A stretch of DNA of 64,000 nucleotides from Pseudanabaena sp. PCC 6802 (GTDB taxonomy: Bacteria; Cyanobacteriota; Cyanobacteriia; Pseudanabaenales; Pseudanabaenaceae): NCBI RefSeq assembly GCF_000332175.1, contig NZ_KB235914.1, forward strand, positions 2,290,868 through 2,354,867, written 5' to 3'. A program made the translations under genes and the position numbers. The notes under the pieces were generated by a model. The model made no database searches and was not told the origin of the DNA. It worked only from the letters and a program-made list of their open reading frames with translations. This document shows, one piece after another, positions 9,864 through 54,533 of this stretch (within the stretch, counting starts at the first letter, position 1; every line of letters begins with the position of its first letter).

Positions 9864-10613
9864 TTAAAATAAATCGCAATAACCTTGCTCTATCTCTATT
9901 TGCTCCAACACCCTCAGTCCACGCGGATCGCCTAGTTTTCTGATAGTGATCTTGGCATCATCCTGGACGCTGAGATCGTCGTCTTCCAATGCTCCAATCA
10001 GGGCATCTAAAGCATCATGATAGATATCGTCGCGGCGATGAGGGGCATCGGCAACTCTAAGCCGCAACAGCTTCCCTAATGACCAGGCACAATTACTTCG
10101 GACTGCAGCGATGCGATCTGACTGTAAAGTCTCAGTTAAAGATTCTATAGCACTGAGGTCGCCCAACTGCCCAAGCGCGCTGGCGGCCCACAGCCGCACT
10201 GCAGCAATATCATACTTTAGGGCAGAGATTAATGGGGCTAATGCGCGTCGATCCTTACAGGTACCTAAAGCCCACACGATACCTTTACGCACGTAGCCGT
10301 TCCATTCCTGGTCTAGCTTGGCAATCAAGGGCAATACGGCAGTAGTCGAGGGATTGCGCCCCAAAGCATAGGCAGCACTGACGCGTACTAGCGTGCAGTC
10401 ATCTTGCAGCAGATCGATCAAGTGAGGGATAGCTCGTCGATCTTCAAGCTCGCAAAAAGCTCTGGCAGCCTGCATTCTTTCCAGAACTGACTCAGAATCT
10501 AACAAAGCCAACATTTCATCTGGATCGGGGCGCGGCAATTCCTCCTCTGGACGATCCAGCGGGCTGGCGAACGATGTTTCTATGTCTAGTAAAGCGATAT
10601 CTTCATCGATCAT
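9864..10613 (-). CDS. HEAT-repeat protein (PBS-lyase type repeats)
   Basis: About 249 residues from the ATG at 10613. The protein is a run of about 30-residue helical repeats: LLQDDCTLVRVSAAYALGR, WNGYVRKGIVWALG and YDIAAVRLWAASALGQLGD are three of roughly six units. Such PBS-lyase HEAT repeats occur in phycobilin lyases and in many cyanobacterial scaffold proteins; I see nothing that ties this one to bilin attachment. The acidic N-terminus (EEELPRPDPDE) is not part of the repeats. The first in-frame ATG at 10649 is less likely because MIDED starts the acidic segment. Confidence 0.75.
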   Translation of the reverse strand: MIDEDIALLDIETSFASPLDRPEEELPRPDPDEMLALLDSESVLERMQAARAFCELEDRRAIPHLIDLLQDDCTLVRVSAAYALGRNPSTTAVLPLIAKLDQEWNGYVRKGIVWALGTCKDRRALAPLISALKYDIAAVRLWAASALGQLGDLSAIESLTETLQSDRIAAVRSNCAWSLGKLLRLRVADAPHRRDDIYHDALDALIGALEDDDLSVQDDAKITIRKLGDPRGLRVLEQIEIEQGYCDLF

Positions 10614-38569: not shown

Positions 38570-40144
38570 ATGGCAGTTTTTACAGGAACCAACGCTAACG
38601 ATAGTTATTTAGCAACCACCGAAGGCGACAACGCTAGAGGTCTCAGAGGCGACGATACTTTAATTGGTAATGTCGGCAGAGATACGCTCAACGGAAATGC
38701 TGACAATGACCTTTTATTTGCAGACAGCTTAACCCAAACCGCAGGTGGCAACGACAGCCTGTTTGGCGGTCAAGGTGCCGACACCCTTGTTGGCGCTCGC
38801 TTTGGCTTCAGCGCTGACAGTTTGGGCGGTAATAGGGACGCAGACTTGCTAGTCGCTTCTACCAATGGTGGTAACACCCTCTTTGGCGGTCAAGGCAATG
38901 ACACCATCTACGGTAGCGTCTCCAATGCCAATACGATGAACGGCGACCTCGGCGATGACGTATTGGTAGCTGGTAATGGTAGCGATCGCATGTTGGGTGC
39001 CGATGGTAACGACACCCTCATCGGTGGCAAAGGCAACAACGACATGTTCGGCGAAGCTGGCAACGACCAGTTCCAATTCTTTACCGCCGTACCGCAGGAT
39101 CTAGTGGCATTTACAGGTGCAGAGCAGGTGGTGCGCAGCAGAGGCGGCTTTGGTGGCTCTGACACGATCTTCGACTTCGCCACTGGTGACACCATTTCAA
39201 TTTCCCAACTAGACCGCAATGCCACAGTAACGGTTACCACCAACTCTGCTGGCGCGGCGGTGATTACCATTGCAGGTACGGCTAGCGACGGTACGTCAGC
39301 AGCCCAAACGATTACGGTTGTTGGTGTCACGAGAGAACAGCTATTGGCACCTGGTTCGCAGTTATTTGCAGTCAACGGCAGCTTCATCACCACCAACGAC
39401 ACCGTCAACACAGGTGATAACGGTGGCACATCCAAATTCACCGTTGGTCAAGGTGCTCCCGGCGCTAATATCAAGGGTTCTAATCTGATTGGTAGTCCTA
39501 CGGCTGATACTTTTACCGACGATCCGACCGCTGCCACCACTGCTAATGGCATCGTATTGTTAACCACAGTCAACGACGATACCGTCAATGGTAACGCTGG
39601 CAACGATTATATGTTTGGCAGTGATGGTAACGACATCCTCAACGGTGGCGATAGCTCTATTACTCCTCCTCGTAATTTTGCAGATGGTGTAGCTGAACTC
39701 GCACCTGTAGATTTGATTATCGGTGGCAGAGGATTTGATACCATGACTGGTGGTACAGGTAGCGACTATTTCAAACTAGATATTTTTGAGCCTGGTGTGA
39801 TTGATACGATCGCTGATTACAAGCCTGCTGCTCCTCCTGCTGGTGAGATTGATAGAATCTTGATCAGTGCTTCTGGATTTGGTGGCTCCCTAATTCCCAA
39901 TCAACGAGCTGTTTTAGTTACAGCACCAGCTGGCTTCTTTGGTACCCTTGGTGCAGGTGGTGTAGAGGGGCAAAATGCCACCAATGCTATTGGCACCTCT
40001 GCTTTCTACTACGATACTGTTGGCGGCGGTCTCTACTACGACCAGGATGGTGGCGGCACAGGCAAGACATACACCCAGGTAGCTCAGATTACACCGCAGT
40101 TTGGCAATCCTTTCAGCTTTACTCAAGTTGGAATTGTTGCTTAG
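38570..40144 (+). CDS. RTX calcium-binding repeat protein, paralogue 2
   Basis: 524 residues; GAGGAG 9 bp before the ATG. Residues 1 to about 290 match paralogue 1 almost exactly (one visible change is REDLLV to DADLLV). The C-terminal part differs: DYFKLDIFEPGVIDTIADYKP, RILISASGFGGSL, AFYYDTVGGGLYYDQDGGG. First of a direct tandem with paralogue 3, and inverted relative to paralogue 1 about 7.6 kb away. Confidence 0.85.
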   Translation: MAVFTGTNANDSYLATTEGDNARGLRGDDTLIGNVGRDTLNGNADNDLLFADSLTQTAGGNDSLFGGQGADTLVGARFGFSADSLGGNRDADLLVASTNGGNTLFGGQGNDTIYGSVSNANTMNGDLGDDVLVAGNGSDRMLGADGNDTLIGGKGNNDMFGEAGNDQFQFFTAVPQDLVAFTGAEQVVRSRGGFGGSDTIFDFATGDTISISQLDRNATVTVTTNSAGAAVITIAGTASDGTSAAQTITVVGVTREQLLAPGSQLFAVNGSFITTNDTVNTGDNGGTSKFTVGQGAPGANIKGSNLIGSPTADTFTDDPTAATTANGIVLLTTVNDDTVNGNAGNDYMFGSDGNDILNGGDSSITPPRNFADGVAELAPVDLIIGGRGFDTMTGGTGSDYFKLDIFEPGVIDTIADYKPAAPPAGEIDRILISASGFGGSLIPNQRAVLVTAPAGFFGTLGAGGVEGQNATNAIGTSAFYYDTVGGGLYYDQDGGGTGKTYTQVAQITPQFGNPFSFTQVGIVA

Positions 40145-40216: not shown

Positions 40217-40398
40217 AAATTTGTGAAAATTTCTGATGTAGGAGCGTCTTTGCAGGCGATTTTACGTGCTTCGGCGCAGAACATTGCTGAAAACTGCATA
40301 ACTACTCAGCGTGTATTGTGATATGCGTAGTGATTAAGGTGGTAAGTTTTTAAGCTCGTGCAGGGTTATACCTTAAGACTTGAGGAGTGCAAAATTTA

Positions 40399-41958
40399 AT
40401 GGCAGTTTTTACAGGAACAAATGCTAACGACAGTTATTTAGCAACTACCGAAGGCGACAACGCTAGAGGTCTCAGAGGCGATGACACTCTCATCGGTAAC
40501 GTCGGCAGAGATACGCTTAACGGTAATGCTGACAACGACCTTCTGTTTGCCGATAGCTTAACCCAAACCGCAGGCGGCAACGACAGCCTGTTTGGCGGTC
40601 AAGGCGCTGACACCCTGGTGGGCGCTCGTTTCGGATTTAGTGCTGACAGTTTGGGCGGTAATAGGGACGCAGACTTGCTAGTCGCTTCTACCAATGGTGG
40701 GAACACCCTCTTTGGCGGTCAAGGCAATGACACCATCTACGGTAGCGTTGCCAATGCCAACACAATGAACGGCGACATCGGCGATGATGTGGTAATTGCT
40801 GGTAACGGGAGCGATCGCATGTTGGGTGCGGACGGTAACGACACCCTGATTGGTGGCAAAGGCAACAACGACATGTTTGGAGAATCTGGCAACGACCAGT
40901 TCCAATTCTTCACCGCCGTACCGCAAGATCTAGTGGCATTTACTGGTGCAGAGCAGGTGGTACGCAGCAGAGGCGGCTTTGGTGGCTCTGACACGATCTT
41001 CGACTTCGCTACTGGCGACACGATTTCAATTTCCCAACTAGACCGCAACGCCACAGTAACGGTTACCACCAACTCGGCTGGCGCAGCGGTAATTGCAATT
41101 GCGGGCACAGCTAGCGATGGCACTCCTGCCAACCAAACCATCACGGTCGTGGGTGTAACTAGAGAGCAGCTACTGGCACCAGGATCGCAGTTATTCGCTA
41201 TCAACGGTAGCTTCATCACCACCAATGACACCGTCAACACGGGTGATAACGGCGGTACGTCTACCTTCACTGTCGGTCAAGGTCAACCTGGTGCCAACAT
41301 CAAGGGTAAGAACCTGGTAGGAGCGCCTACACCTGACACATTCTCCCCTATTGCTGGCGTAGCAACGACGGCTAATGGCATTCTGCTCCAATCTACTGTC
41401 AACGACGACACCCTGGCTGGTAATGCTGGCAACGATGTTATGGCTGGCGGCGCTGGCAATGACAGTATCAATGGTGGCGATAGTATTACTACTCTTCCTA
41501 TTGATGCAGGGAATACGGTTGATGAGTCAGGTGGAGATCTGCTAATTGGTGGTAGTGGATTTGATACGTTGGTTGGCGAGCGAGGCACTGACTATTTCAA
41601 GCTAGATGTCTTCGAGCCTGGTGTCATCGATACGATCGCTGACTTCAGACCCATAACGGAGTTCGATCGCATTCTGATTAGTGCATCTGGCTTTGGCGGC
41701 TCTCTAGTGGCTGGTCAAGGGGCTTTTGGTGCTGCACCAGTTAGCTTCTTCCTCACAACTGGTGCAAATAGTGTAGAGGGACAGAATGCTCCTGCTGCTA
41801 ACATCGGTACTTCTACCTTCTTCTACGACACAGCAGGTGGTGGACTCTACTTCGACCGAGATGGTGGCGGTACTGGCACTACATTTACCAAAGTCGCTCA
41901 GATTACACCTCAGAATGCTAATACGTTTGCTCCCACTCACATAGTAATTGTCCCTTAA
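40399..41958 (+). CDS. RTX calcium-binding repeat protein, paralogue 3
   Basis: 519 residues from the ATG at 40399, aligned with the paralogues (a GTG four codons upstream is also open). The N-terminal half is again almost identical, with small changes such as GDIGDDVVIAGNG. The C-terminal half shares the DYFKLDVFEPGVIDTIADF block with paralogue 2 but diverges elsewhere (EGQNAPAANIGTSTFFYDT). It has an imperfect hairpin after the stop near 41994-42024. Confidence 0.84.
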   Translation: MAVFTGTNANDSYLATTEGDNARGLRGDDTLIGNVGRDTLNGNADNDLLFADSLTQTAGGNDSLFGGQGADTLVGARFGFSADSLGGNRDADLLVASTNGGNTLFGGQGNDTIYGSVANANTMNGDIGDDVVIAGNGSDRMLGADGNDTLIGGKGNNDMFGESGNDQFQFFTAVPQDLVAFTGAEQVVRSRGGFGGSDTIFDFATGDTISISQLDRNATVTVTTNSAGAAVIAIAGTASDGTPANQTITVVGVTREQLLAPGSQLFAINGSFITTNDTVNTGDNGGTSTFTVGQGQPGANIKGKNLVGAPTPDTFSPIAGVATTANGILLQSTVNDDTLAGNAGNDVMAGGAGNDSINGGDSITTLPIDAGNTVDESGGDLLIGGSGFDTLVGERGTDYFKLDVFEPGVIDTIADFRPITEFDRILISASGFGGSLVAGQGAFGAAPVSFFLTTGANSVEGQNAPAANIGTSTFFYDTAGGGLYFDRDGGGTGTTFTKVAQITPQNANTFAPTHIVIVP

Positions 41959-42388: not shown

Positions 42389-43879
42389 TTAAGGGAACCA
42401 TTGAGGGCGTATCCCGAATAGTGGAAGTAGCTGAGCTTCAGATTCAGATGCGATCGATGTCAGAGGTAACAGGCTGAGCTGCGGTTTTATCTCGATCTCC
42501 GCCGTTCCCAGCAGAGTTTGTGCCTCTGTGGTATCGGCCTGTATATTGATTTGCTTGTTTCTGGAATTACCTGTTTGGTCTTTAGGAGAGGGTATTTTCT
42601 GCCTAACTTGCTCGAACAAGAGATATTGCCCATCGGGAGCGATGCTGATTTGGAGATTGCGCTGGTTGGGAAAATCGAGAAGCCGCGTTAGATTCCTGGT
42701 CTTGAGATTAATTACCGCTAGGTACGGCAATTCGCGATAGGTTTCTTTAGTCTGCTTGACATCCGTTAGCAGACAATAAAGGTTCTCTGCCTGCGGATCG
42801 AATTGGGCGCTGAGAATAGAACCATTAGTTTGAAAAATCTCCTGCTGAACTCCCTGATTGGTGACGCGGAAGAGCGATCGCGTATAGTTATTGCCGTATT
42901 TCACCATCGCCGCCTGCGCTCCATCCCGACTAAAGCTGAGAATCGTGCCAAATTTAGGTAAAAAATCCAGCGGTTTCGCCTGTGGTTCCAGAGGGAGAAT
43001 CGCTACTCCTGCCCCTTGAAGGATGGCGATCGAGCTACTATCGCGGGTGAACGTAAAATCGCCACCAGGTTGATTTTCAAGTGGTTTGGGCGGTTGGTTA
43101 TCTTTAATTATCCAAAGCCCGTACTGACCGGGAACGAGACGATTTAGTCTCTGAACCAGTATGGTTGAGCCATCAGGAGATAGATCGAATTTGAAATTCT
43201 GGTATTCATTACTATCTAGAATGAGCTTCACTTCTGGCTTGGGCTGAAGCGAGACAGTGTAGAGCTTGCGGTCGAGCGGATCGATGACTGGTGCTTTCTC
43301 TGTCGCAATAAAGAGCATCCTTTGACGATCTGGGTAAATGCGAAAGTCAGATACCAGTAAATTCTCTGGTGTCAGCACTTGTTTCGACTTCTTCGTGAGA
43401 TCGTAGACAACCAATCTCCCCAATTCCCGATCGCCAGTACCAATATAAGCAAAAATGGGCTTAGGAGTATGGAAAGTGCCAGTAAATGGCTGGATCGGCG
43501 TATGGTTTCCGGCTTCGTTCGCAAAGCGATCGTAGGCATTCTCCAGCTTGACCTGATAGGATTTGCCATAGACGGCTGGCGATAGCAGAGTATACGCCAT
43601 TCTTCTTCCCGCCCAACTGAATTTCCCACGGAGTTCTGGACTGAGCTTGAGATTCTTCTCGACAGTCTCATGGTTCATGGGGCGGTTAAACGTCAATACG
43701 AAACCCGTGTCGTCAGAGCTTACTTCCTGCCCTTGCCAACTAAAATCCCTCACCAGCGGCGCAGTGCGATCGCCGCTCCACAGGAGGATCGCAATCAAAA
43801 TACTCAGGACTGCAACTGCTGCGATCGCCGCTCGATCCAGAGGTTGTGTTAGCGATTTGAAATTCCTTTTAGTACTCAT
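42389..43879 (-). CDS. Membrane-anchored beta-propeller protein with Ig-like domain
   Basis: 496 residues. One membrane helix (about residues 17-36) at the N-terminus is followed by an Ig-like block (GFVLTFNRPMNHETVEKNLKL, SbsA-like) and then repeated propeller blades (LVVYDLTKK, FDLSPDGSTILVQRL, LSFSRDGAQAAMVKYG, SIAPDGQYLLFEQ), as in TolB-type WD-like propellers. The start overlaps the upstream gene by 11 bp, so translation is probably coupled. It likely acts outside the plasma membrane; its partner is unknown. Confidence 0.72.
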   Translation of the reverse strand: MSTKRNFKSLTQPLDRAAIAAVAVLSILIAILLWSGDRTAPLVRDFSWQGQEVSSDDTGFVLTFNRPMNHETVEKNLKLSPELRGKFSWAGRRMAYTLLSPAVYGKSYQVKLENAYDRFANEAGNHTPIQPFTGTFHTPKPIFAYIGTGDRELGRLVVYDLTKKSKQVLTPENLLVSDFRIYPDRQRMLFIATEKAPVIDPLDRKLYTVSLQPKPEVKLILDSNEYQNFKFDLSPDGSTILVQRLNRLVPGQYGLWIIKDNQPPKPLENQPGGDFTFTRDSSSIAILQGAGVAILPLEPQAKPLDFLPKFGTILSFSRDGAQAAMVKYGNNYTRSLFRVTNQGVQQEIFQTNGSILSAQFDPQAENLYCLLTDVKQTKETYRELPYLAVINLKTRNLTRLLDFPNQRNLQISIAPDGQYLLFEQVRQKIPSPKDQTGNSRNKQINIQADTTEAQTLLGTAEIEIKPQLSLLPLTSIASESEAQLLPLFGIRPQWFP

Positions 43880-44651
43880 ATGGATTTCTAGGCGGTGAAA
43901 TCGGAACGATCTTTGACGCTTGGATCGCCAGTTGACGCTTGCCGTTATTTTCGATAGTAATCATTTGACCTTCTACTTCCAGCCAGCGATCGCTAGGGTA
44001 GGCGGAGCGTCCTTGCTCGGTCTTGACGGGAAGGCTGACTGGATAAACATCGGCGGCACAGCAGGTAATGACAAAGCGCGAAATTAAGAAATATTGTTCT
44101 GGTAAGTCTTTGGGATAGACCACAAACCCCTGTACTTTAGCTTTTTGGCCGACATAGGTATCTGGCTCTGGATAAACGTTGATGGTACGAATCCAATCTA
44201 CGAGCGATCGCTCTTCGGATCGACTGTTAGCCCGAAAAGACTGCGGTACGGCGCGGGTAGCCGTGAGGCTATCATTTACGCCGCGCTGGATGGCGGTATC
44301 GCTAGCAAATGGTTGCGGTGTCACGATCAGTCCCAGTAATGCCGTAATCAGCAGGAGGCTGCTACTCCAACCTGGTAATAGTAAGGTAACGTGCTGAACT
44401 GTCTGTCCTGTTTGTTGGGAACGGTGGCGACGCATGACTTGTCTGGCTTCTGCTGCTGCGATCGCCACTAAGAAAAATCCCGCCACAACCGTCATCCAGA
44501 AATAGTTGGGATGAACCAAGAGACTCAGTTGGTCGAACAACCATAATTTGAGGAGTAGAATTCCCCATCCCCCAATTGCTAGTACGTCCAACCAGGGAGC
44601 TACGGAGCGAAATAGTTTGGGATATTGTTGACTGCGAGTTCCCATTTTCAT
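43869..44651 (-). CDS. TIGR03943-family putative permease subunit
   Basis: 260 residues: three or four N-terminal membrane segments (about residues 22-40, 48-66 and 92-110) then a soluble C-terminal domain with VQGFVVYPKDLPEQYFLISRF and VITCCAADVYPVSLPV, where a CC pair may bind metal. This family travels with the DUF318/YraQ permease, which is the next gene upstream on the same strand, 127 bp away. Confidence 0.85.
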   Translation of the reverse strand: MKMGTRSQQYPKLFRSVAPWLDVLAIGGWGILLLKLWLFDQLSLLVHPNYFWMTVVAGFFLVAIAAAEARQVMRRHRSQQTGQTVQHVTLLLPGWSSSLLLITALLGLIVTPQPFASDTAIQRGVNDSLTATRAVPQSFRANSRSEERSLVDWIRTINVYPEPDTYVGQKAKVQGFVVYPKDLPEQYFLISRFVITCCAADVYPVSLPVKTEQGRSAYPSDRWLEVEGQMITIENNGKRQLAIQASKIVPISPPRNPYEY

Positions 44652-44778
44652 GTCATCAATCTAATTCATATTACGCAAATTGGTATAAGGAGCGCAGGGG
44701 CGTAGCCCCCGCTTTAGTTTTCTCTCTCCCTGAGAGAGAGGATTAGAGGTGAGGGTAAAATCTTTCGCATAGGATGAG

Positions 44779-45831
44779 TTATCTAACATGTAAATTAATG
44801 AATAAGCAAGCGAGAAATGTGAGTTGTCCAGCTAAGAGAAAAAGATACATTACCGCTCTCTTTTTGAAGATTGTCAGCATTAGCCCAATGCCTTTAAGGT
44901 CAATCATAGGGCCAAATACGAGGAAAGCAAGCAAAGAACCACTAGTAAATGTGGAAGCGAAGGAGAGGGCAAAGAAAGAATCTACAGTAGAGCAGATCGA
45001 CACTACCGCAGCCAGGATCATCATCGCCACAATTGAACTAACGGGACCCTGGCCCAAACCGATGATAATTTCCCTAGGGATACCGACCTGAATAATAGCA
45101 GCGATCGCGCTGCCCACCACCAATACTCCCCCCAATTCGCGAATTTCGGCGATCGTATTATCGATTAGCAAGCGCATTTTATGGGTTAAGTATTTTCGTT
45201 TGCTTGCGTTCGCCTTTGTCCCCGACATTGCATCCGAGGCACTTGCTGGCATGACAGAGCCAAGCGCTGTGTCCAACTGCAATGGCTGCGACTCGCCCAA
45301 AATAAATGTCCCCGTTGGCACGCGCGCTCCCGCTACTGCTAGAGCAGGTTCTTGTGGAATTTTTTGGCTAAATCGCAGCGATCGCGCTACGGATGGTTGC
45401 AACAAGGCACTTATATCCTCCTGAGCGCTGAATATCCAGCCTACAATCGTGGCGATCGTCAAAGATAGACCCACCCGTAAAAACACGATCTCCGGCTGGT
45501 CGCGGAATGCCGTCCAGGTTGCCCAAAATACAATTGGATTGATCGTAGGTGCTGCCAATAGAAACCCGATTGCCACGGCTGGAGGCACGCCTTGCACGAT
45601 TAGCCGCCGCGCCACCGGTATATTGCCGCACTCGCATACGGGAAAAAGAAAGCCCACCATGCTGCCTGCTAGCGAACCCAGCAACGGATTTTTGGGAATC
45701 ATGGTTAACAGCTTGCGCTCGTCTACAAAGATCAGTAACAAACCGGAGAGCAATACGCCCAAGATTAAAAATGGTATAGCCTCAACCAAAAGGCTGAGAA
45801 ATAGGGTGAAAGCACTATCGATCTTATTCAT
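44779..45831 (-). CDS. Permease of the YraQ/DUF318 family
   Basis: 350 residues, about eight to ten membrane segments in two similar halves joined by a polar loop (about residues 150-215). The motif GFLFPVCECGNIPVARRLI with a Cys-x-Cys-Gly (residue 60 area) and LLAAPTINPIVFWAT are family marks. Members are linked to metal or metalloid handling in other bacteria; the ion here is not known. Works with the TIGR03943 partner downstream. Confidence 0.87.
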   Translation of the reverse strand: MNKIDSAFTLFLSLLVEAIPFLILGVLLSGLLLIFVDERKLLTMIPKNPLLGSLAGSMVGFLFPVCECGNIPVARRLIVQGVPPAVAIGFLLAAPTINPIVFWATWTAFRDQPEIVFLRVGLSLTIATIVGWIFSAQEDISALLQPSVARSLRFSQKIPQEPALAVAGARVPTGTFILGESQPLQLDTALGSVMPASASDAMSGTKANASKRKYLTHKMRLLIDNTIAEIRELGGVLVVGSAIAAIIQVGIPREIIIGLGQGPVSSIVAMMILAAVVSICSTVDSFFALSFASTFTSGSLLAFLVFGPMIDLKGIGLMLTIFKKRAVMYLFLLAGQLTFLACLFINLHVR

Positions 45832-45901: not shown

Positions 45902-46382
45902 GGTAGTGTTCTAGATCTGTGGTAATCATTTTAGACAGCACACTTAAATTCAAATCGATTGATGAACAGACCAATCACAATATCGTGCATCACAATAGAT
46001 TTAGAAAAGCAAATAGTTTTGCGCACTAAGCGCTTGATGCGGGTACGAAACGTTGCTGTGTTTGCGCTCAATTTTTTGAGTATTTTGTGTGCCCACTGTA
46101 TGTTCAGCAGGGTCAAGATGGCGTTCATAGGCTCCCCAGCCATCTGTGTAAAACTGGCTGATGCCAAAAGGTTCTAACCACGTTTTGAGCTTTACAAAAG
46201 CTTCGTCTGCATGGGACGCTAAGACGTAGGCTAAAATTCGCCATGTCACTAATCTGTTGTTTGACCTCAGCTAAATGACCTCGGTAGGTGTAGTTCAGGA
46301 TCGAGGTGCAACGATCGCATTCTGGATTACGACATCTATAGCGTGGTTTTCCCTCACCAGATGAACCATGTCTGACGACATC
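45902..46382 (-). pseudogene. Remnant of an IS1-family element
   Basis: Minus-strand pieces of one IS1-type transposase: SGEGKPRYRCRNPECDR and LNYTYRGHLAEVKQQISDM (near 46250-46375), then after a deletion of the middle EPFGISQFYTDGWGAYERHL and TQKIERK, then after a frameshift FRTRIKRLVRKTICFSKS to the stop at 45931. The missing centre and frameshift make it inactive. No intact inverted repeat pair is seen. Confidence 0.75.
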
Positions 46383-46409
46383 GCTACTTTACCAAGTTGG
46401 ACAAAGAAC

Positions 46410-46621
46410 TGGTTCCAATACCATTAAAATTTCTCGCCTCAGAATTTTGAGATATTATCCCCCATTTCCACAGATTCAGAACATTACCGATTTAACGATG
46501 AGCTACTGCGAGACTGGATGCAAAACCGTCACGACGAACTTGCCCACCAACGTGCGATCGAGATTTACCAAGCTAGTCTGCTAAGCAACCGGAAAAAGAA
46601 AAACAACCCATACACCCGATA
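46410..46621 (+). pseudogene. Possible C-terminal coding remnant, unknown
   Basis: A frame without start codon reads EHYRFNDELLRDWMQNRHDE, then LAHQRAIEIYQ, ending SNRKKKNNPYTR and stop. It looks protein-like but has no upstream part and no recognised family. It sits between the IS1 debris and the tRNA fragment. Confidence 0.3.
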
Positions 46622-46670
46622 GCTTGGGTCAAAAATGGGGCGATATGAACTATGCTTTTGTGAAACCAAT

Positions 46671-46716
46671 CGGAGCGAAAGGATTTGAACCTTCGACCCC
46701 CACTACCCCAAAGTGG
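46671..46716 (-). other. 3' fragment of tRNA-Pro(GGG), probable attachment site
   Basis: On the minus strand this is the anticodon stem-loop CCACT-TTGGGGT-AGTGG (anticodon GGG), variable loop, T arm with GGTTCAAATCC and the acceptor 3' strand CGCTCCG. The D arm and 5' acceptor strand are absent: the upstream sequence is unrelated. It lies 101 bp from a tyrosine recombinase gene, the classic layout of an integrated element that has displaced the 3' end of a tRNA gene. Confidence 0.75.
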
Positions 46717-46817
46717 ATTTCAATTGAATTGCGTACGCAATTTGAGTGCTTTTAACCTATACTGTTAGCTAATTTACAGGCTTTTTTAGGTCACTTTAGT
46801 AGCATTTTGAGTACGCA

Positions 46818-47948
46818 ATGAGTACGCGAGGCGAGAAGGGTAAGGTTGCAGTTGAAGCGATCGATGGGTGGCTGCGGTTGCGATGGCGAGTGTACGGTAC
46901 GCAATATGCCTTACGAATTGGTCTGCCAAATACCAAAGCCAACCGCATGGTTGCACAGAGCAAGGCTCATCAAATTTATCTCGATGTTATCAGTGGCAAT
47001 TTCGATCCGACGCTGGATAAGTATCGCCCACCACGCCAAAATGATTGTGGGCAAGTCAAAAGCACTAGGGTTAGCCTCATCGATGCTTACGAACAGTTCT
47101 GCAAGTACAAATCCAAACAGCTTGACCCGCGTACCTATGAGAAATACCAAACGTTGGGCAAGCAATTGAAGGCATTTCACCAGAATAAGGAATTAGCTGC
47201 GATCGCTCCTGAAGATGTTGAGGGCTTCTGGAATTATTTGGAGGAGTTAGGACTAGAGAAACTTACCCGCAAGGGGAAAGCGGTGCTCCTAGCTGCTTTT
47301 GGTAAATGGGCATTTGAGCAAGGTTTTATTAAGGATAATTTCTGGCGAGATGTGCCTAAGTGGGTCAGGTTACCTGCTCCAGAGTCTCCGAAGCCATTTA
47401 CTCCCGAAGAAACCCAGAAAATTTTGGCTGCGTTTAAGTCCCATCGTTACTACAGCTACTACTACCCATTTGTTCTGTTTTGCTTTGGTACGGGTGTTCG
47501 TTTGGGTGAGGCGATCGGGTTGCAGTGGAAAAGACTATCTGAAGATTGTGCAACCATCGAAATTGTGGAAGCATTATCTCGTGGAGTGCGCAAGCCCACT
47601 AAAACTAACCGTTCGCGGCAGTTCAGGCTGGCTCGTAACATTGCGGTGATGTTACTACAGCACAAGCCTGCAAACGCAGAGCCTGAAGATATTGTGTTTA
47701 CTACACCCAGAGGTCATGCCATTGACGATCATAATTTCCGCAATCGGGCATGGATAACTGTTCTGAGCGAACAGCAGATTTCCTATCGCAAGCCCTACAA
47801 CATGAGGTCAACCTTTATCAGCTATGCACTGGCATCGGGCATGAGTCCGATGATAGTCTCGCAAATTACGGGGCACGATCCGCAGGTGATGTTCAATCAT
47901 TATGCTGGAGCTATTGAAAGTACACCTGCAACCCCTGAACTTTATTGA
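46818..47948 (+). CDS. Tyrosine recombinase (integrase)
   Basis: 376 residues. The N-terminal arm-binding/core-binding region is followed by a catalytic domain with Arg in FGTGVRLGEAIGLQWK, a second Arg in YNMRSTFISYA, His in ITGHDPQVM and the nucleophile Tyr in FNHYAG. The usual HxxR is Y-N-M-R here, as in several cyanobacterial integrases. Its start is just beyond the tRNA-Pro fragment, supporting site-specific integration there. It is followed by the interrupted Fic gene. Confidence 0.92.
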   Translation: MSTRGEKGKVAVEAIDGWLRLRWRVYGTQYALRIGLPNTKANRMVAQSKAHQIYLDVISGNFDPTLDKYRPPRQNDCGQVKSTRVSLIDAYEQFCKYKSKQLDPRTYEKYQTLGKQLKAFHQNKELAAIAPEDVEGFWNYLEELGLEKLTRKGKAVLLAAFGKWAFEQGFIKDNFWRDVPKWVRLPAPESPKPFTPEETQKILAAFKSHRYYSYYYPFVLFCFGTGVRLGEAIGLQWKRLSEDCATIEIVEALSRGVRKPTKTNRSRQFRLARNIAVMLLQHKPANAEPEDIVFTTPRGHAIDDHNFRNRAWITVLSEQQISYRKPYNMRSTFISYALASGMSPMIVSQITGHDPQVMFNHYAGAIESTPATPELY

Positions 47949-47960
47949 TATGGTATTTGA

Positions 47961-48835
47961 GAAGCCATTTAGGAAGTAAAAGGCGCACCAAAAGCAGGTA
48001 TAAATACTGATGAAGTCTAGTATAAACCTGAAGAGATGCGCCGATCCTATAATACCGATTTATCCAACCAAGAATGGGAAATTATCGCACCCATGCTACC
48101 CAAACCATCAAAATGGGGTAGGCCACCCAAAACAAATATGCGAGAGTTACTGAATGCCATTTTCTATATACTCAAAAATGGTTGTACATGGCAGAATCTA
48201 CCCCATGACTTTCCGCCTTACTCAACGGTCTATTTCTACTGGCAAAGGTGGGAAAGAACTGGGCTACTGGAGGAGATTAATCGCAAATTGAGCCAACAAT
48301 TTAGGGAAAAGGTTAGTAAAGAGGCGACCCCAAGCTTGGTGAGTATCGATAGCCAGAGTGTGAAGACAACAGAAAGTGCGGGCAGTCGAGGTTTTGATGG
48401 CGGTAAGCAAATCAAGGGCAGAAAACGCTTCGCTATGGTTGACACCTTGGGCTTAGTTGTAAAGGTGTTGGTGTGTGCAGCTAACATCGGTGAAAGAGCA
48501 GGAGCTAAGCAGTTGTTACAGAATCTCACATCTCCATTACCACGATTAGAGAAAATTCTGGTTGATGCTGGATTCTCTGGTGATGAAATCACACAATGGG
48601 TCAACGACAACTTCGGATGGCTTTGGGAAGTTAGCAAACGGGCAGACAATCAGAAAGGTTTTGTAGTGGAGTCAAAGCGTTGGGTGGTAGAGCGAACCTT
48701 TGCTTGGTTAGGTAATTGTCGTAGACTAAGCAAGGATTATGAATTTTATGAGCAAATGTCTGAATCGTTTATTTACTTGGCTTTAATCCGCAAAATGCTA
48801 AGAAATCTGGCAACTGCGACTTCCTAAATGGGTTC
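47961..48835 (+). mobile_element. IS5-family element, copy 2
   Basis: Same 875 bp unit as copy 1 without the extra tail. Ends GAAGCCATTTAGGAAGT and the complement of GAACCCATTTAGGAAGT; target duplication TGA at 47958-47960 and 48836-48838. Inserted at codon 4 of the Fic gene. Confidence 0.92.
48036..48827 (+). CDS. IS5-family transposase (copy 2)
   Basis: 263 residues, identical in translation to the copy at 12653-13444, with the same DDE residues (SIDSQS, DAGFSGDE, VVERTFAWLGN). Its TAA stop is followed without gap by an ATG (48828) that opens the Fic fragment, so re-initiation of translation is possible. Identity of the copies points to recent transposition. Confidence 0.92.
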   Translation: MRRSYNTDLSNQEWEIIAPMLPKPSKWGRPPKTNMRELLNAIFYILKNGCTWQNLPHDFPPYSTVYFYWQRWERTGLLEEINRKLSQQFREKVSKEATPSLVSIDSQSVKTTESAGSRGFDGGKQIKGRKRFAMVDTLGLVVKVLVCAANIGERAGAKQLLQNLTSPLPRLEKILVDAGFSGDEITQWVNDNFGWLWEVSKRADNQKGFVVESKRWVVERTFAWLGNCRRLSKDYEFYEQMSESFIYLALIRKMLRNLATATS

Positions 48836-49591
48836 TGAGCGCAACTACCCCTTCAACGATCTACCCTTATTACCACCGCCTGTTGAATTAGAGACTAAGG
48901 TGGTTCTGAAGCAGGCAATCTCTGCCAACCGATCGCTGGCAGAATTGAAAGGGGTTGGAGATCTGATTCCGAATCAAGCAGTTCTGCTCAATACCTTGGC
49001 TATCCAGGAAGCTAAGCTGTCATCGGAAATCGAAAATATTGTCACAACTAACGATGAACTGTACCGAGCCTTAGCGGATGAAGGACAGCCGAGCGATCCT
49101 CACATCAAGGAAGTGCTGCACTACAATGAGGCGCTTTGGTATGGTTTCCAGAAAATCAAGCAAGACCAGCCGCTAACGACGCGACTGTTTGAGGAGATCG
49201 CTCAGATCGTTAAGCCCAGTGTTTCAGGAGTGCGGAAGGTGCCTGGAACACTGGTGGTTGACGGAATTACTGGAAATGTTATTTATACACCTCCAGAGGG
49301 CGAAGCGATTCTCAGGGATAAATTAGCCAATCTCGAAAGTTTTATGTATGCCAATGACGACTTAGACGTGCTCATCAAGATGGCAATAATGCACTACCAG
49401 TTTGAGTCAATTCACCCTTTTACAGATGGCAATGGCAGAACGGGACGCATTTTGAATATTCTCTTCCTGGTGGAAAAACACTTACTGGAATTGCCCGTTC
49501 TCTATCTAAGTAGCTACATCATTCAGCATAAACGTGACTATTACATGGGGTTGCGTGGCGTGACCGAGCAAGGAGACTGGGAAAAATGGCT

Positions 49592-50788
49592 GGGAGCATC
49601 TCAGTTTTGCAAGGCAAGGTTAAGAGAGCCATTAAGGTAAGCAGAACGGTGTTTGAGGACTTGTGGCACATTATCACGGTTCCATTGAGCGCCAGAGATT
49701 TTGATGCGTCTAGCGATTTGCTTAACAGCAGATTCCACTGCGCCAGAACCAATAGAGCAAATCTGCTCGGTTTGGAAATACCAATAATCAGGAATACGAT
49801 GGCGATGCTTGTGCAGATAAGCAATAAAATTGATGCTCTGAGGACTAGCTAAGTGATTGAGCTCAGCAATAGCTGCAGTCACATTACCCCGCCACAAAAA
49901 AGCTTCGACCCCAGTCAAAAGTTGAGCTGTAGCCTCAATTTTATGCAGGTTTTCCACCAAATGGAACCAGTCCAAGATTTCATAGCGACTATCAGGTATA
50001 GAGATCTGGGCAATAATATTCCAAATCCCATCATGTCCATCCCCAATACAGGTAACCATATCTGCTAAAGGCTGTCGATTTACCCAGTCTGTTAAGGCAA
50101 TGTTATCTTGAAATGTGGCAAATATGGCTTGTCCATGCAAGTTCACAGCTTTATAGTCCTTCCACTCACTTGGCTGTCCAAGTGGCGTGCGCAGTCTGAT
50201 TCTGCCTCCATCGACACTTAATTCCTCGACCGACTCTTCTACCTCTAGGGGGCTAAATTCATGGCGATGCACCAGGCGCTGTTGTGTACTGCGCGATATT
50301 TGCACTCCCATCAACATGGCTAAGTCTTTGGCGGCTTGTTCGTAGGATACATTCGCACTCAAGATCAGGCTACATCTTTCCACATACGGGCTCACCTGGC
50401 TATAGGGGGCTACTTTGAGCTTCTGCGCTTGCTTTTGCGTGAGGTGGAGCTGTCCGATGCTGCTTTGCACTCGCCTGCGGCGTCCTGCTTCTGTGCCCGT
50501 AACTGTGCGGATAAAAAACTCCCTATTTCTGGGCTGACATGTTCGAGGATTTGCTGCCGCACAGCGATTTCGATCCCTTCCAAGCTGGTTAGTTGTTCCG
50601 ATGGTGTATTCTGATAAAGGATGGCGGCAATAGCTTGAACGTGCGCTTGCATTTCTTTTTCCTGCTCTGGAGTCATGGTTGCTCTCCTTGGGGTTGGTTT
50701 CTCGTATTCCTATCTTCTGATTTCTTCCCCCTTTTGGCTACCCATCTATATTAAGCATTATTACTCAGTGCAAAGTTGAGATGCTCCC
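49592..50788 (-). mobile_element. ISKra4-family element inserted in the Fic gene
   Basis: The ends are GGGAGCATCTCAGTTTTGC and, on the other strand, GGGAGCATCTCAACTTTGC; target duplication AAATGGCT (49584-49591 and 50789-50796). 1197 bp, one transposase in two overlapping frames on the minus strand. Confidence 0.9.
49601..50676 (-). CDS. ISKra4-family transposase, two frames joined by a -1 shift
   Basis: The first frame (50676-50410, 88 residues, MTPEQEKEMQAHVQAIAAIL...) overlaps the second (open from before 50470 to 49601), which lies at -1 and holds the catalytic part: SVDGGRIRLRTPLG (first Asp), VTCIGDGHDGIWN and EILDWFHLVENLHKIE (second Asp), and SGAVESAVKQIARRIK (Glu). The overlap contains CGCAAAAGC, a candidate slip site. 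Programmed frameshifting is known in this IS family; decay by a simple frameshift is the alternative. Confidence 0.82.
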
Positions 50789-51193
50789 AAATGGCTGTTG
50801 TACGTGCTTCGAGCTATTGAGGAAACTTCTTCGATCACTCGTGACAAAATTCTAGCTATCCGAGGACTAATGGAACGAGTTTCGGAAACGGTGAAGCGCG
50901 AACTACCCAAAATATATAGCAAGGAACTTGTCGAAGTCCTGTTTCAACAACCTTATTGTAAGATTCGTTTTTTGGAAGAAGCTGATATTGCAAAACGTCA
51001 AACTGCTTCAAATTACTTACGTGAGTTAGAGGGTTTTGGTTTGCTCAAAGGGGTTAAACGCGGACGCGAAGTTTACTACGTTAATATACCTTTCTTCGAC
51101 TTGCTGACTAAGTAATAATACTTATGTGTATATTTTTTAACTAAAAATCGACATGTATACATAATATGTACGTGCCATCGACATATTATTTCA

Positions 51194-51340: not shown

Positions 51341-52188
51341 GGAACCTCAGTTAGGGTTAACCTGCATTATTCATGAAGAGCAGATGCTACACAAATAGTG
51401 GTAGGTTGACTATTTTGTTAAACTAAAACACTATATACACACGACTTGGAAGGTTAAGCAGGTAAGGTCTAAAAAGGGCAACAAAAGGCTAAGATGAAGG
51501 AATAAACGACGAAAAAGCCTTGTTTTGCCAATGTTATTACCTTTTTTCAGGCTGGTAGGAGTAGCACCAACCATAGCTAAAGGGATGCAGGCATATCGCA
51601 GCGTGTTTTGTCGCGAAGAGGGATTTAACCACGTCAGTCGATATGTCAATGGTTTGATTCTAAGTCCCAACAAGACATTACAAGGGATCCACAGCCAAAT
51701 AGTGTGGCCAGAGGGAGAAGCCGTGAGCCGACGGGCAATGCACGAGGCAGTGTTTGAGGCAGGGTGGGATAGCGAAAAGTTAATGCAAAAGCATCGGGAG
51801 ACATTATCATCGGAGCATCAAGGCAAGGGGAAAGAGGTAATCAGCCTGGATTGGACGTTGGCACATCACGAACGGGGCAAAGAAATCTTTGGAGTCAAAC
51901 GCAGTTACGATTATGTAGAGCATCGCATGAGCAACTACCAAACAGTGGTGACTGCAGTAATCTCAAATCGGGAGTATATCGATGGGTTAGACGTGGTAGT
52001 GCAACCACCGAATTGGCAGGAGGCAGAGAAAGCATATTTGCAGATGAGCGCACAACAGAGTTACACGGAGATGGCGCAGGTAATGGCGCGTCTGAGCGAG
52101 TTAATCAGCTACCAGAGCAATCGGCTGGAGTATCGTAAACGCACGGAAATCGTGCGAGACCTCGTGGAACAACTGGAAACAGAGGGAC

Positions 52189-53539
52189 GAGACTGATCAG
52201 AATTTTGTGTAAGCGGTCTAGAATCACAAAAACCAAGGAGACCGCAACATGTTAAGAGGCAAACAAGCAACTAATCGTACAGATGAACTACTAGACGAGT
52301 TGGTGTCAGAGTGCCATAGCCCCGAGGACATTCTAGGAGAATCGGGCTTACTGAAGCAACTGAGTCAACGACTAATCGAGCGAGCGCTCACGGGAGAGCT
52401 GAGCCATCACCTCAAATCAAGCACGCCTAAGGGAGAGGAAGCGGTAGAAGACGAAGTTGTGCGACGCAACAGCCGCAATGGCTACTCGCAGAAGACGGTG
52501 CAGTCGCAACAGGGCGAAATGGAGTTGTCGATACCGCGAGACCGTAACGGCGAGTTTGACCCCGTGCTGGTACCGAAACACCAAAGGCGAATAGCAGGAC
52601 TCGATGAGAAAATCCTGGCTATGTATGCACGGGGATTAAGCACCCGAGACATTAGTGCTCAACTCGAAGAACTCTATGGTGCCAAGATCTCCGCCGCACT
52701 CATCAGTGAGGTCACTGATGCAGTTAGCGACGAGGTCAAGGCTTGGCAGTGCCGTCCCCTGGAACCTGTATATCCCATCATTTACCTCGATGCCCTCTAC
52801 GTGAATATCAAGGTGTCGGGTCGGGTGAGCAAGCGAGCGGTCTATGTCGTCTTGGGTATTACGGTTGAGGGCAACAAAGAATTGCTTGGGCTGTGGATTG
52901 GGGAGGTGGAATCCGAAGGCGCTAAGTTCTGGCTCAAGGTGCTGACTGACCTCAAAAACCGTGGGGTCAAGGACATTCTGATTGCCTGTTGCGATGGCTT
53001 AGTGGGATTCCCCCAGGCGATTGAGGCTGTTTTCCCGCAAACCCAGGTGCAACTATGTATTGTGCATCTGATCCGCAACTGTTTGCGTCATGTGCCCTGG
53101 AAAGACGCTAAAGCTGTTGTGGCTGACCTCAAGCCCATTTATCATGCTGCCACTTTGGCAGAAGCCGAAGCTGCGCTTGAGGCTTTTGCCGCCAAGTGGG
53201 ATCGCCTATACCCCGCGATTAGCCAAATCTGGCTGCGCCATTGGCAGAACATTATCCCCATCTTTGACTATCCCATGGACATCCGCAAAGTCATCTACAC
53301 TACCAATGCCATTGAATCCCTCAATCGCTCCCTGCGCAAGGTGATTAAAACCAAGGCTGTCTTCCCCGATGAGGAATCTGTCTTCAAGCTCATGTTCTTG
53401 GCCATGCATAACATTGCCAAGCGTTGGACTCGCCCCCTTAAAGATTGGAAGGCAGCGTTGTCATATTTTGCTATCCTATTCCCAGGACGTTTAAATTACT
53501 GACCTTATTTCTCGCTTACACAAAAATCTGAGCACTCTC
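52189..53539 (+). mobile_element. IS256-family element
   Basis: Ends GAGACTGATCAGAATTTTG and, on the other strand, GAGAGTGCTCAGATTTTTG, both continuing TGTAAGCG (24 of 27 matching). GAGGGAC is repeated at 52182-52188 and 53540-53546, a 7 bp target duplication. 1351 bp, complete. Confidence 0.9.
52249..53502 (+). CDS. IS256-family (mutator-type) transposase
   Basis: 417 residues. N-terminal ALTGELSHHLKSS and NSRNGYSQKTVQS, then YLDALYVNIK (first Asp), IACCDGLVGFPQAIEAVFPQ followed by CIVHLIRN (second Asp and the C-x2-H of the family), and the Glu in YTTNAIESLNRSLRKV. Frame intact and preceded by a GGAG site, so probably functional. Confidence 0.94.
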   Translation: MLRGKQATNRTDELLDELVSECHSPEDILGESGLLKQLSQRLIERALTGELSHHLKSSTPKGEEAVEDEVVRRNSRNGYSQKTVQSQQGEMELSIPRDRNGEFDPVLVPKHQRRIAGLDEKILAMYARGLSTRDISAQLEELYGAKISAALISEVTDAVSDEVKAWQCRPLEPVYPIIYLDALYVNIKVSGRVSKRAVYVVLGITVEGNKELLGLWIGEVESEGAKFWLKVLTDLKNRGVKDILIACCDGLVGFPQAIEAVFPQTQVQLCIVHLIRNCLRHVPWKDAKAVVADLKPIYHAATLAEAEAALEAFAAKWDRLYPAISQIWLRHWQNIIPIFDYPMDIRKVIYTTNAIESLNRSLRKVIKTKAVFPDEESVFKLMFLAMHNIAKRWTRPLKDWKAALSYFAILFPGRLNY

Positions 53540-54291
53540 GAGGGACAGTTCCCCAACGCCCACTATGCTTTTGACAACGGCGTATTGACCCTGGAGTTGA
53601 CGCGTTTGATTGAAAGTAAGGGCAAGCACTGGGTCAGCGAAATTGAATCATCGCGACATATCCTTTGGGATAACCAGTGGCAACGAGTTGATGCTGTCGC
53701 CACCCTGTTACGGTCTCAGCATCCTCAGAGCTTTCGGGCTGTGACGATCGCCTGTCGTAATGGTCAAAGTAAGACCATGTGGGCATTTACGAAAGTGATA
53801 CGGCTGAAACGCTATGGACGCAAGCGTTTGGTCATTGTACACGAGCAGTCGGACTTGGGTGATGCCCCGCGCTTTTTACTCACGGATGCCCAACATTGGG
53901 AAAGCACGCGCATCATGGAAACTTGGAACTATCGCTGGTCTTGTGAAGTCTTTCATGAGTTCTGCAAGCAAGTTACAGGATTGGAAGCGGCTCAGGTACG
54001 CAACCAGCAAGCGGTCAAACGCCACTTGCGTTTATGTTGTCTAGCGCAGTCTTTGCTCCAACGCGTAACGGGCTCGGGCGGAAAATCGGAAAGTTTTTCG
54101 TTTGCTAAGGGAACGCAAACCATCGGGCAGAAGCTCCATTCCCTCTCGCGTGAAGCGCTTGCTCAACTACTGGAGTTGGCTCATGGCTTGTTTGCCAACG
54201 GACGTTCTATAGCTCAGGTATTGGAGGTGCTTATGCCTGCTTAGATTCATCTGACATTCTGTCCTCGGCTTGAATAACCTTCCAAGTCGTG

Positions 54292-54533
54292 CCAAGTTAT
54301 CGTACTGACAGAGGGCGTAGAGTAAAGGTCCTCTTTTTTGTTCCATGCCAACGGCAATTTTCCCCTCTCCATAGCGTGCTCGCAGTTGATTAACCCAATC
54401 CAAGAGGTCTTGGGGGCGAGTTTGGATGATGTATTCTTGCGCCTGTGCCGGACGCACAATCGTAGAGGGCAATATCATGTTTGCGATCTGCCCAGTCAAT
54501 GCCAATGTAGGCAACATATTGGTCAGTGGTCAT
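54292..54533 (-). pseudogene. 5' fragment of an IS110-family transposase
   Basis: Minus-strand start MTTDQYVAYIGIDWADRKHD (54533 on) has the DEDD first Asp of IS110 enzymes in GIDWADRKH. After a frameshift it continues EYIIQTRPQDLLDWV and MEQKRGPLLYALCQYD, then is cut by the IS701 end. The remainder of the gene is not found on the far side of IS701, so a deletion or rearrangement occurred. Confidence 0.75.

Follow-up and report, generated by a model that had tools for sequence, protein, structure and literature searches.

The closest described systems are the tRNA-targeting islands of the Islander type, which share with the locus examined here a displaced 3′ tRNA fragment, a crossover centred on the anticodon, an integrase at one end and an arrangement in tandem arrays; among the 3919 islands catalogued (PMC4383910), tandems of at least three occur only four times. 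The present locus departs from these islands in two respects: the fragment under study, hereafter fragment A, is wrongly oriented relative to the only intact tRNA-Pro(GGG) gene of the genome, and the array to which it probably belonged appears to have been torn by rearrangement. Because of this wrong orientation, an orientation filter would discard fragment A. Most likely, the site represents a known kind of tRNA-targeting genomic island with an unusual, broken and rearranged history.

Among phages, PaV-LD encodes an integrase that is 37% identical to that beside fragment A (IntA) over its full length and that is likewise preceded by a 3′ fragment of tRNA-Pro(GGG), although the PaV-LD fragment points the same way as its integrase. 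PaV-LD is a complete phage; by contrast, the examined proteins of two elements described below, E2 and E3 (a non-exhaustive set, with ten scanned by profile), included none recognised as phage structural proteins, and the ten had matches to integration, replication or repressor functions, or none. The tycheposons of Prochlorococcus, cyanobacterial cargo islands with a tRNA-targeting tyrosine recombinase, may provide a further lead for comparison, although the hosts differ. A parallel for the proposed rearrangement is the integrase of Thermococcus pTN3, a tyrosine integrase with inverted tRNA-derived sites and large chromosomal inversions; that system, however, is archaeal and its action was shown experimentally (PMC5495485), whereas the inversion proposed here is inferred.

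Fragment A and its integrase

The window (the whole stretch of 64,000 nucleotides that was analysed, C5:2290868–2354867) comes from a 5.6 Mb genome in 6 contigs (G000); its features around fragment A are listed in Table 1. An earlier reading, made from the sequence alone, had described a minus-strand 3′ fragment of tRNA-Pro(GGG), running from the anticodon stem to the 3′ end, next to a tyrosine recombinase. Both features are real, although the fragment measures 48 bp and not the 46 bp then given. All 48 positions agree with the 3′ portion of the sole intact tRNA-Pro(GGG) gene of the genome (E 2.5e-18), the first base being the start of the anticodon stem (CCACT-TTGGGGT-AGTGG) and the last the acceptor 3′ end; CCA is unencoded. 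Neither ARAGORN nor Rfam called a tRNA at fragment A, as expected for a gene truncated at its 5′ end. The folding stability of the fragment as single-stranded DNA is not unusual, and folding therefore supports no claim.

The intA gene begins 101 bp from the fragment. Its product matches Phage_integrase (2.5e-14) together with SAM-like and arm-binding domains in Pfam, and the PHROG integrase at 6e-39. Residues R228, K259, R330 and G352 are invariant in alignment A1, whilst H353 and Y362 were read off the IntA sequence. A repeat pair, TGAGTACG, is located at 46808 and 46819 with a spacing of 11 bp. As the sequence-only reading had proposed, the fragment and its integrase mark one end of an element that extends to the right; this is a mobile element targeting tRNA-Pro(GGG), and fragment A is its integrase-side end.

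Table 1. Features around fragment A, in window coordinates
Feature	Position	Strand	Evidence
DUF1980 and ArsP_1-type permease genes	43869..45831	-	Pfam
IS1-type transposase remnant adjoining truncated xisA (limits approximate)	45902..46463	-	DDE_Tnp_IS1 2.3e-11 for 46004-46249
xisA, C-terminal remnant of excisionase-like gene	46464..46601	+	46-aa match to xis3 (next to fragment B), 78% identical in aa sequence
tRNA-Pro(GGG) 3′ fragment, att core A	46669..46716	-	48/48 identity to intact gene C5:2540437-2540512
att-site arm, integrase side	46717..46817	.	carries arm-type repeats; position matches homologous loci
Arm motif TTGCGTACTCAAAA	46805..46818	-	whole-genome pattern search: 2 matches, other copy at fragment B (C5:2602550)
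intA, tyrosine integrase, 376 aa, intact ORF	46818..47948	+	Pfam and PHROG
IS5-family insertion, codon 4 of fic, right after intA	47961..48835	+	DDE_Tnp_1/DUF4096; TGA target duplication; many near-identical copies
fic 5′ part (Fic_N and Fic domains)	48836..49591	+	Pfam PF13784, PF02661
Second IS, within fic	49592..50788	-	inverted ends GGGAGCATCTCA/TGAGATGCTCCC; 8-bp target duplication AAATGGCT; many near-identical genome copies
fic 3′ part (SoFic-like C-terminal domain)	50789..51115	+	Pfam PF21248 3.4e-31
Third IS with nested Mutator/IS256-type IS (~52188-53541)	51441..54293	+	terminal inverted repeats CACGACTTGGAAGGTTA; DDE_5, Transposase_mut, DDE_Tnp_1 domains

Integrases related to IntA

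Homologues were surveyed in named genomes and in 390 genomes of the class by an alignment-based scan, a single-sequence scan of contigs having found none. Nearly all cyanobacterial IntA homologues with enough upstream sequence have a tRNA gene or 3′ fragment, of several isoacceptors, at a distance of 80–260 bp, and the homologues in phage PaV-LD and on 22 IMG/VR contigs show this pattern almost throughout; the distance at fragment A falls within this range. Across the tree, the tRNA and the integrase point the same way in 50 rows and in opposite ways in 17 rows; in this quick tree, based on an incomplete search, IntA is placed in a four-row clade (starred) inside the same-way group, yet it has the opposite orientation, as does G002-Ea, an element of the relative G002.

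In phage PaV-LD (HQ683709) the tRNA-Pro(GGG) 3′ fragment lies 121 bp before the integrase, at approximately 10238–10283 (L138 3834–3879), and 22 IMG/VR contigs with related integrases contain similar tRNA fragments, flanked 5′ of the anticodon by non-tRNA sequence. By their sequence context these fragments are probably free attP sites, and the comparison gives PaV-LD and many of its IMG/VR relatives a likely attachment site.

In G002 (C3:1490000–1540000; L096, L097), three integrases and two fragments occur within 10 kb, and the intact tRNA-Pro locus follows after 31 kb; the whole is another tandem array. It also contains metal-efflux genes related to those of E2. Many relatives have a tRNA-Pro(GGG) gene with no integrase detected beside it, and the flanks are too little syntenic for an orthologous empty site to be called. 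On one contig of G005 (C95; L073 213–640), the two halves of tRNA-Pro(GGG) are 355 bp apart, through an insertion within the gene or else a mixed assembly. Nostoc punctiforme NIES-2108 (L185 2992–5300) has two related integrases in tandem by a tRNA-Thr-like fragment. On the 882-kb contig C1 (L074 7241–8323), a tRNA-Val-like sequence adjoins another integrase of the IntA family.

The flanks of fragment A

The Fic gene and the IS-rich stretch reported earlier to the right of intA are present, with fic broken by two insertion sequences. The IS5-family copy split the gene at codon 4, and the second IS, with its AAATGGCT duplication, split it again. Read from the IS flanks, intA and fic were formerly neighbours one base apart, the original start of fic probably being the ATG at 47950, one base past the intA stop. 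A recurrent int–fic pairing was sought in homologous loci and none was found. The third IS, for which no clear target duplication was found, possibly marks the edge of the E3 remnant; past its end, at approximately 54.3 kb and about 8 kb right of A, chromosomal genes resume.

To the left, where a simple reading would place chromosome, lies instead the excisionase remnant xisA. Over 232 bp, tRNA fragment included, the regions of A and B are 78% identical in nucleotide sequence. The adjoining stretch with the IS1-type remnant has repeated matches in relatives. With xisA on its 3′ side and intA on its 5′ side, fragment A is no plain border between chromosome and element. The longest stretch common to the xisA side and the intA side of A is only 7 bp, which suggests that xisA came from another element; it probably belongs to a further one, E4.

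Beyond these remnants, the DUF1980 and ArsP_1-type permease genes probably represent old chromosomal flank. Their orthologues in the relative G003 keep order and strand and are located approximately 12 kb left of the G003 tRNA-Pro fragment, a placement that fits this assignment of the left side of the window. The two genes that adjoin the G003 fragment are found here away from A, at 2.686–2.688 Mb, which calls for more than one rearrangement. Farther left, two adjacent RTX-type calcium-binding repeat proteins, closely alike and 524 and 523 aa long (window 38570–40144 and 40387–41958), look like a recent duplication.

Other copies of the tRNA-Pro(GGG) sequence

The fragment sequence occurs three times in the genome: at A (−), in the intact gene at C5:2540437–2540512 (+) and at fragment B, C5:2602479–2602526 (+). 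A partial match at 1444603 is tRNA-Pro(CGG); approximately 300 bp downstream of this gene (C5:1444567; L078 8568–9111) the decayed remains of an integrase of the IntA family are found. ARAGORN finds one intact tRNA-Pro(GGG) in the genome. The sequence-only reading had advised searching for a complete gene with the same 3′ sequence, and this gene is identical over that part. It had also assigned such a gene to the other end of the element beginning at A; the gene lies instead 203 kb to the right of A, on the opposite strand, and heads a different element, E2.

E2 extends over 62 kb from the intact gene to fragment B, with both ends on the same strand, and is an ordinary textbook island. Its integrase gene, int2, is positioned 163 bp past the tRNA end and reads away from the tRNA, whilst an excisionase-like gene, xis2 (named by 51% identity to xis3, and without a profile match of its own), adjoins B. 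Among the cargo are an RND efflux pump, P-type ATPases, an Nramp transporter and a cation efflux protein; a helicase-loader/replication-type gene, an S24 repressor-like protein and a cytosine methylase are encoded at the right end.

Across fragment B from E2 lies a third element, E3. Its gene xis3 (PHROG_66 excisionase) is located 3′ of B and reads towards the fragment, and beyond xis3 come the E3 module and IS-rich DNA, followed from approximately 2.618 Mb by apparently ordinary chromosomal genes. A genome search for fragment copies and integrases revealed neither an integrase nor a tRNA fragment closing E3 to the right of B. Both A and B are flanked on each side by element genes. In terms of the Islander definition, A is a displaced fragment fully identical to the intact gene (48/48), with an integrase near one end; flanking in the same orientation is found for the pair of intact gene and B, which bounds E2, and not for A (−) and the intact gene (+), 203 kb apart.

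These positions bear directly on the simplest layout, in which the chromosome would end at A and a single element would run rightward to an intact, same-strand tRNA-Pro(GGG) at its far end. With respect to intA, the fragment is on the strand expected of such an end, and G003 and G002 show exactly that layout, but here the sole intact gene belongs to E2 and sits 203 kb off on the opposite strand, ordinary chromosomal genes start about 8 kb right of A, and the supposed chromosomal side bears an excisionase remnant. As stated, this layout is refuted, and we regard it as hardly credible.

Pairing of element ends by an arm motif

Integrases of the general type of IntA bind arm sites on either side of the core. 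The motif TTGCGTACTCAAAA occurs exactly twice in the 5.6 Mb genome, on the integrase side of A and on the xis3 side of B, and each of the two sites contains two CGTACTCA repeats spaced 11 bp apart; in a control, 600 random 135-bp segments compared with the A side gave a 12-mer as the longest match. The ends of single intact elements also have motifs in common, of 17 bp for E2 (GTATAAAATTGGTATAC), 21 bp for the G003 element and 10 bp for G002-Ea. In PaV-LD, G002-Eb and the IMG/VR contigs no clear arm motif common to both sides was found, the signal being weak in free phage attP sites; the arm rule is therefore not universal, and the pairing argument is strong but not absolute. Given TTGCGTACTCAAAA on both the intA side and the xis3 side, intA and xis3 are most simply read as the two ends of E3, whose other end is thus most likely fragment B, 265 kb from A and inverted. 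Matching of arm motifs offers a simple means of pairing the ends of torn elements.

Two other assignments of A and B were weighed against this pairing. Fragment A could be the attP of one decayed element with the order xisA–core–intA, for example a circle captured via an IS, the tRNA gene here never having been used. The xis–core–int order does equal that of attP, and free attP sites of such a kind occur in PaV-LD and the IMG/VR contigs; however, the arm motif of intA is absent from the xisA side and present on the xis3 side at B, where E3 is without precisely the integrase end that A supplies, and we consider this origin decidedly unlikely. Alternatively, A and B may be ends of two different, related elements, each having lost its other end. 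In favour of this, both are IS-rich and decayed, and the genome has other related integrases, but two independent and exactly complementary losses would be needed and TTGCGTACTCAAAA occurs nowhere else in the genome; such an origin appears unlikely.

A probable tandem array torn by inversion

The reading we favour, and consider probable, is that of a tandem array at tRNA-Pro which was torn by an inversion of approximately 265 kb, with A as the integrase-side end of E3. The observations are three copies of the tRNA sequence on their respective strands, the flanking element genes, the common arm motif and the tRNA association of the integrase lineage; from these the order of integration, the former unity of E3 and the inversion with its mechanism are reconstructed. 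The attP of the IntA family is arranged as xis, tRNA 3′ fragment and int, with the crossover at the anticodon loop or beside it, and the element-borne fragment completes the tRNA upon integration. Successive integrations would have built an array in the order tRNA-Pro, E2 (62 kb, metal efflux), B, E3, A and E4, the last now presumably represented by the excisionase remnant alone. Ends of an integrated element are expected as direct repeats; A and B are inverted relative to each other, 265 kb apart. An inversion of this size would have parted A, with intA, from B, with xis3, leaving them in opposite orientations, and either an inversion with one end inside E3 or one mediated by the integrase at the cores would yield this geometry.

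For the latter route, the integrase would have recombined the attP of an unbroken E3 with an inverted tRNA-derived site, the flip falling exactly at the cores of A and B. Undoing an inversion at these cores gives, besides an ordinary E2/E4 junction, a perfect E3 attP (intA–core–xis3) whose arms match, and inversion by a tyrosine integrase between tRNA sites is documented in Thermococcus (PMC5495485). E3 must, however, first have sat at a non-tRNA site, and the breakpoints give no evidence separating this route from an IS-mediated or random inversion inside E3. We view the flip at the cores as possible but doubtful.

Unbroken counterparts of the proposed arrangement exist in G003, where fragment, int and an intact tRNA 32 kb on are found in sequence, and in G002, as a 32-kb element within its array. 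The unrearranged order is seen in none of the closely related genomes, and the available relatives have gene orders too scrambled for the inversion to be proved from them. Around A and B, GC skew is uninformative, and in seven relatives the IMPase gene right of the E3 remnant is not syntenic with the genes right of B. A route for the inversion through two IS5-family copies, one at window 47961 and one at C5:2612878, was weighed and discarded, as these are simple insertions with target duplications in the same orientation. If torn as proposed, this cyanobacterial array of tandem tRNA-Pro elements would be a case of the kind that orientation-matching programs miss.

As the intA and xis3 ORFs are intact and A and B are inverted, recombination between A and B would flip the intervening segment and not excise E3. 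The two sites might even form a live switch, by which IntA and Xis3 flip the 265-kb segment with tRNA-Pro(GGG) and the metal-efflux element whilst E3 stays unexcised, although we judge this quite improbable; were the sites still active, excision would have been turned into a large chromosomal inversion.
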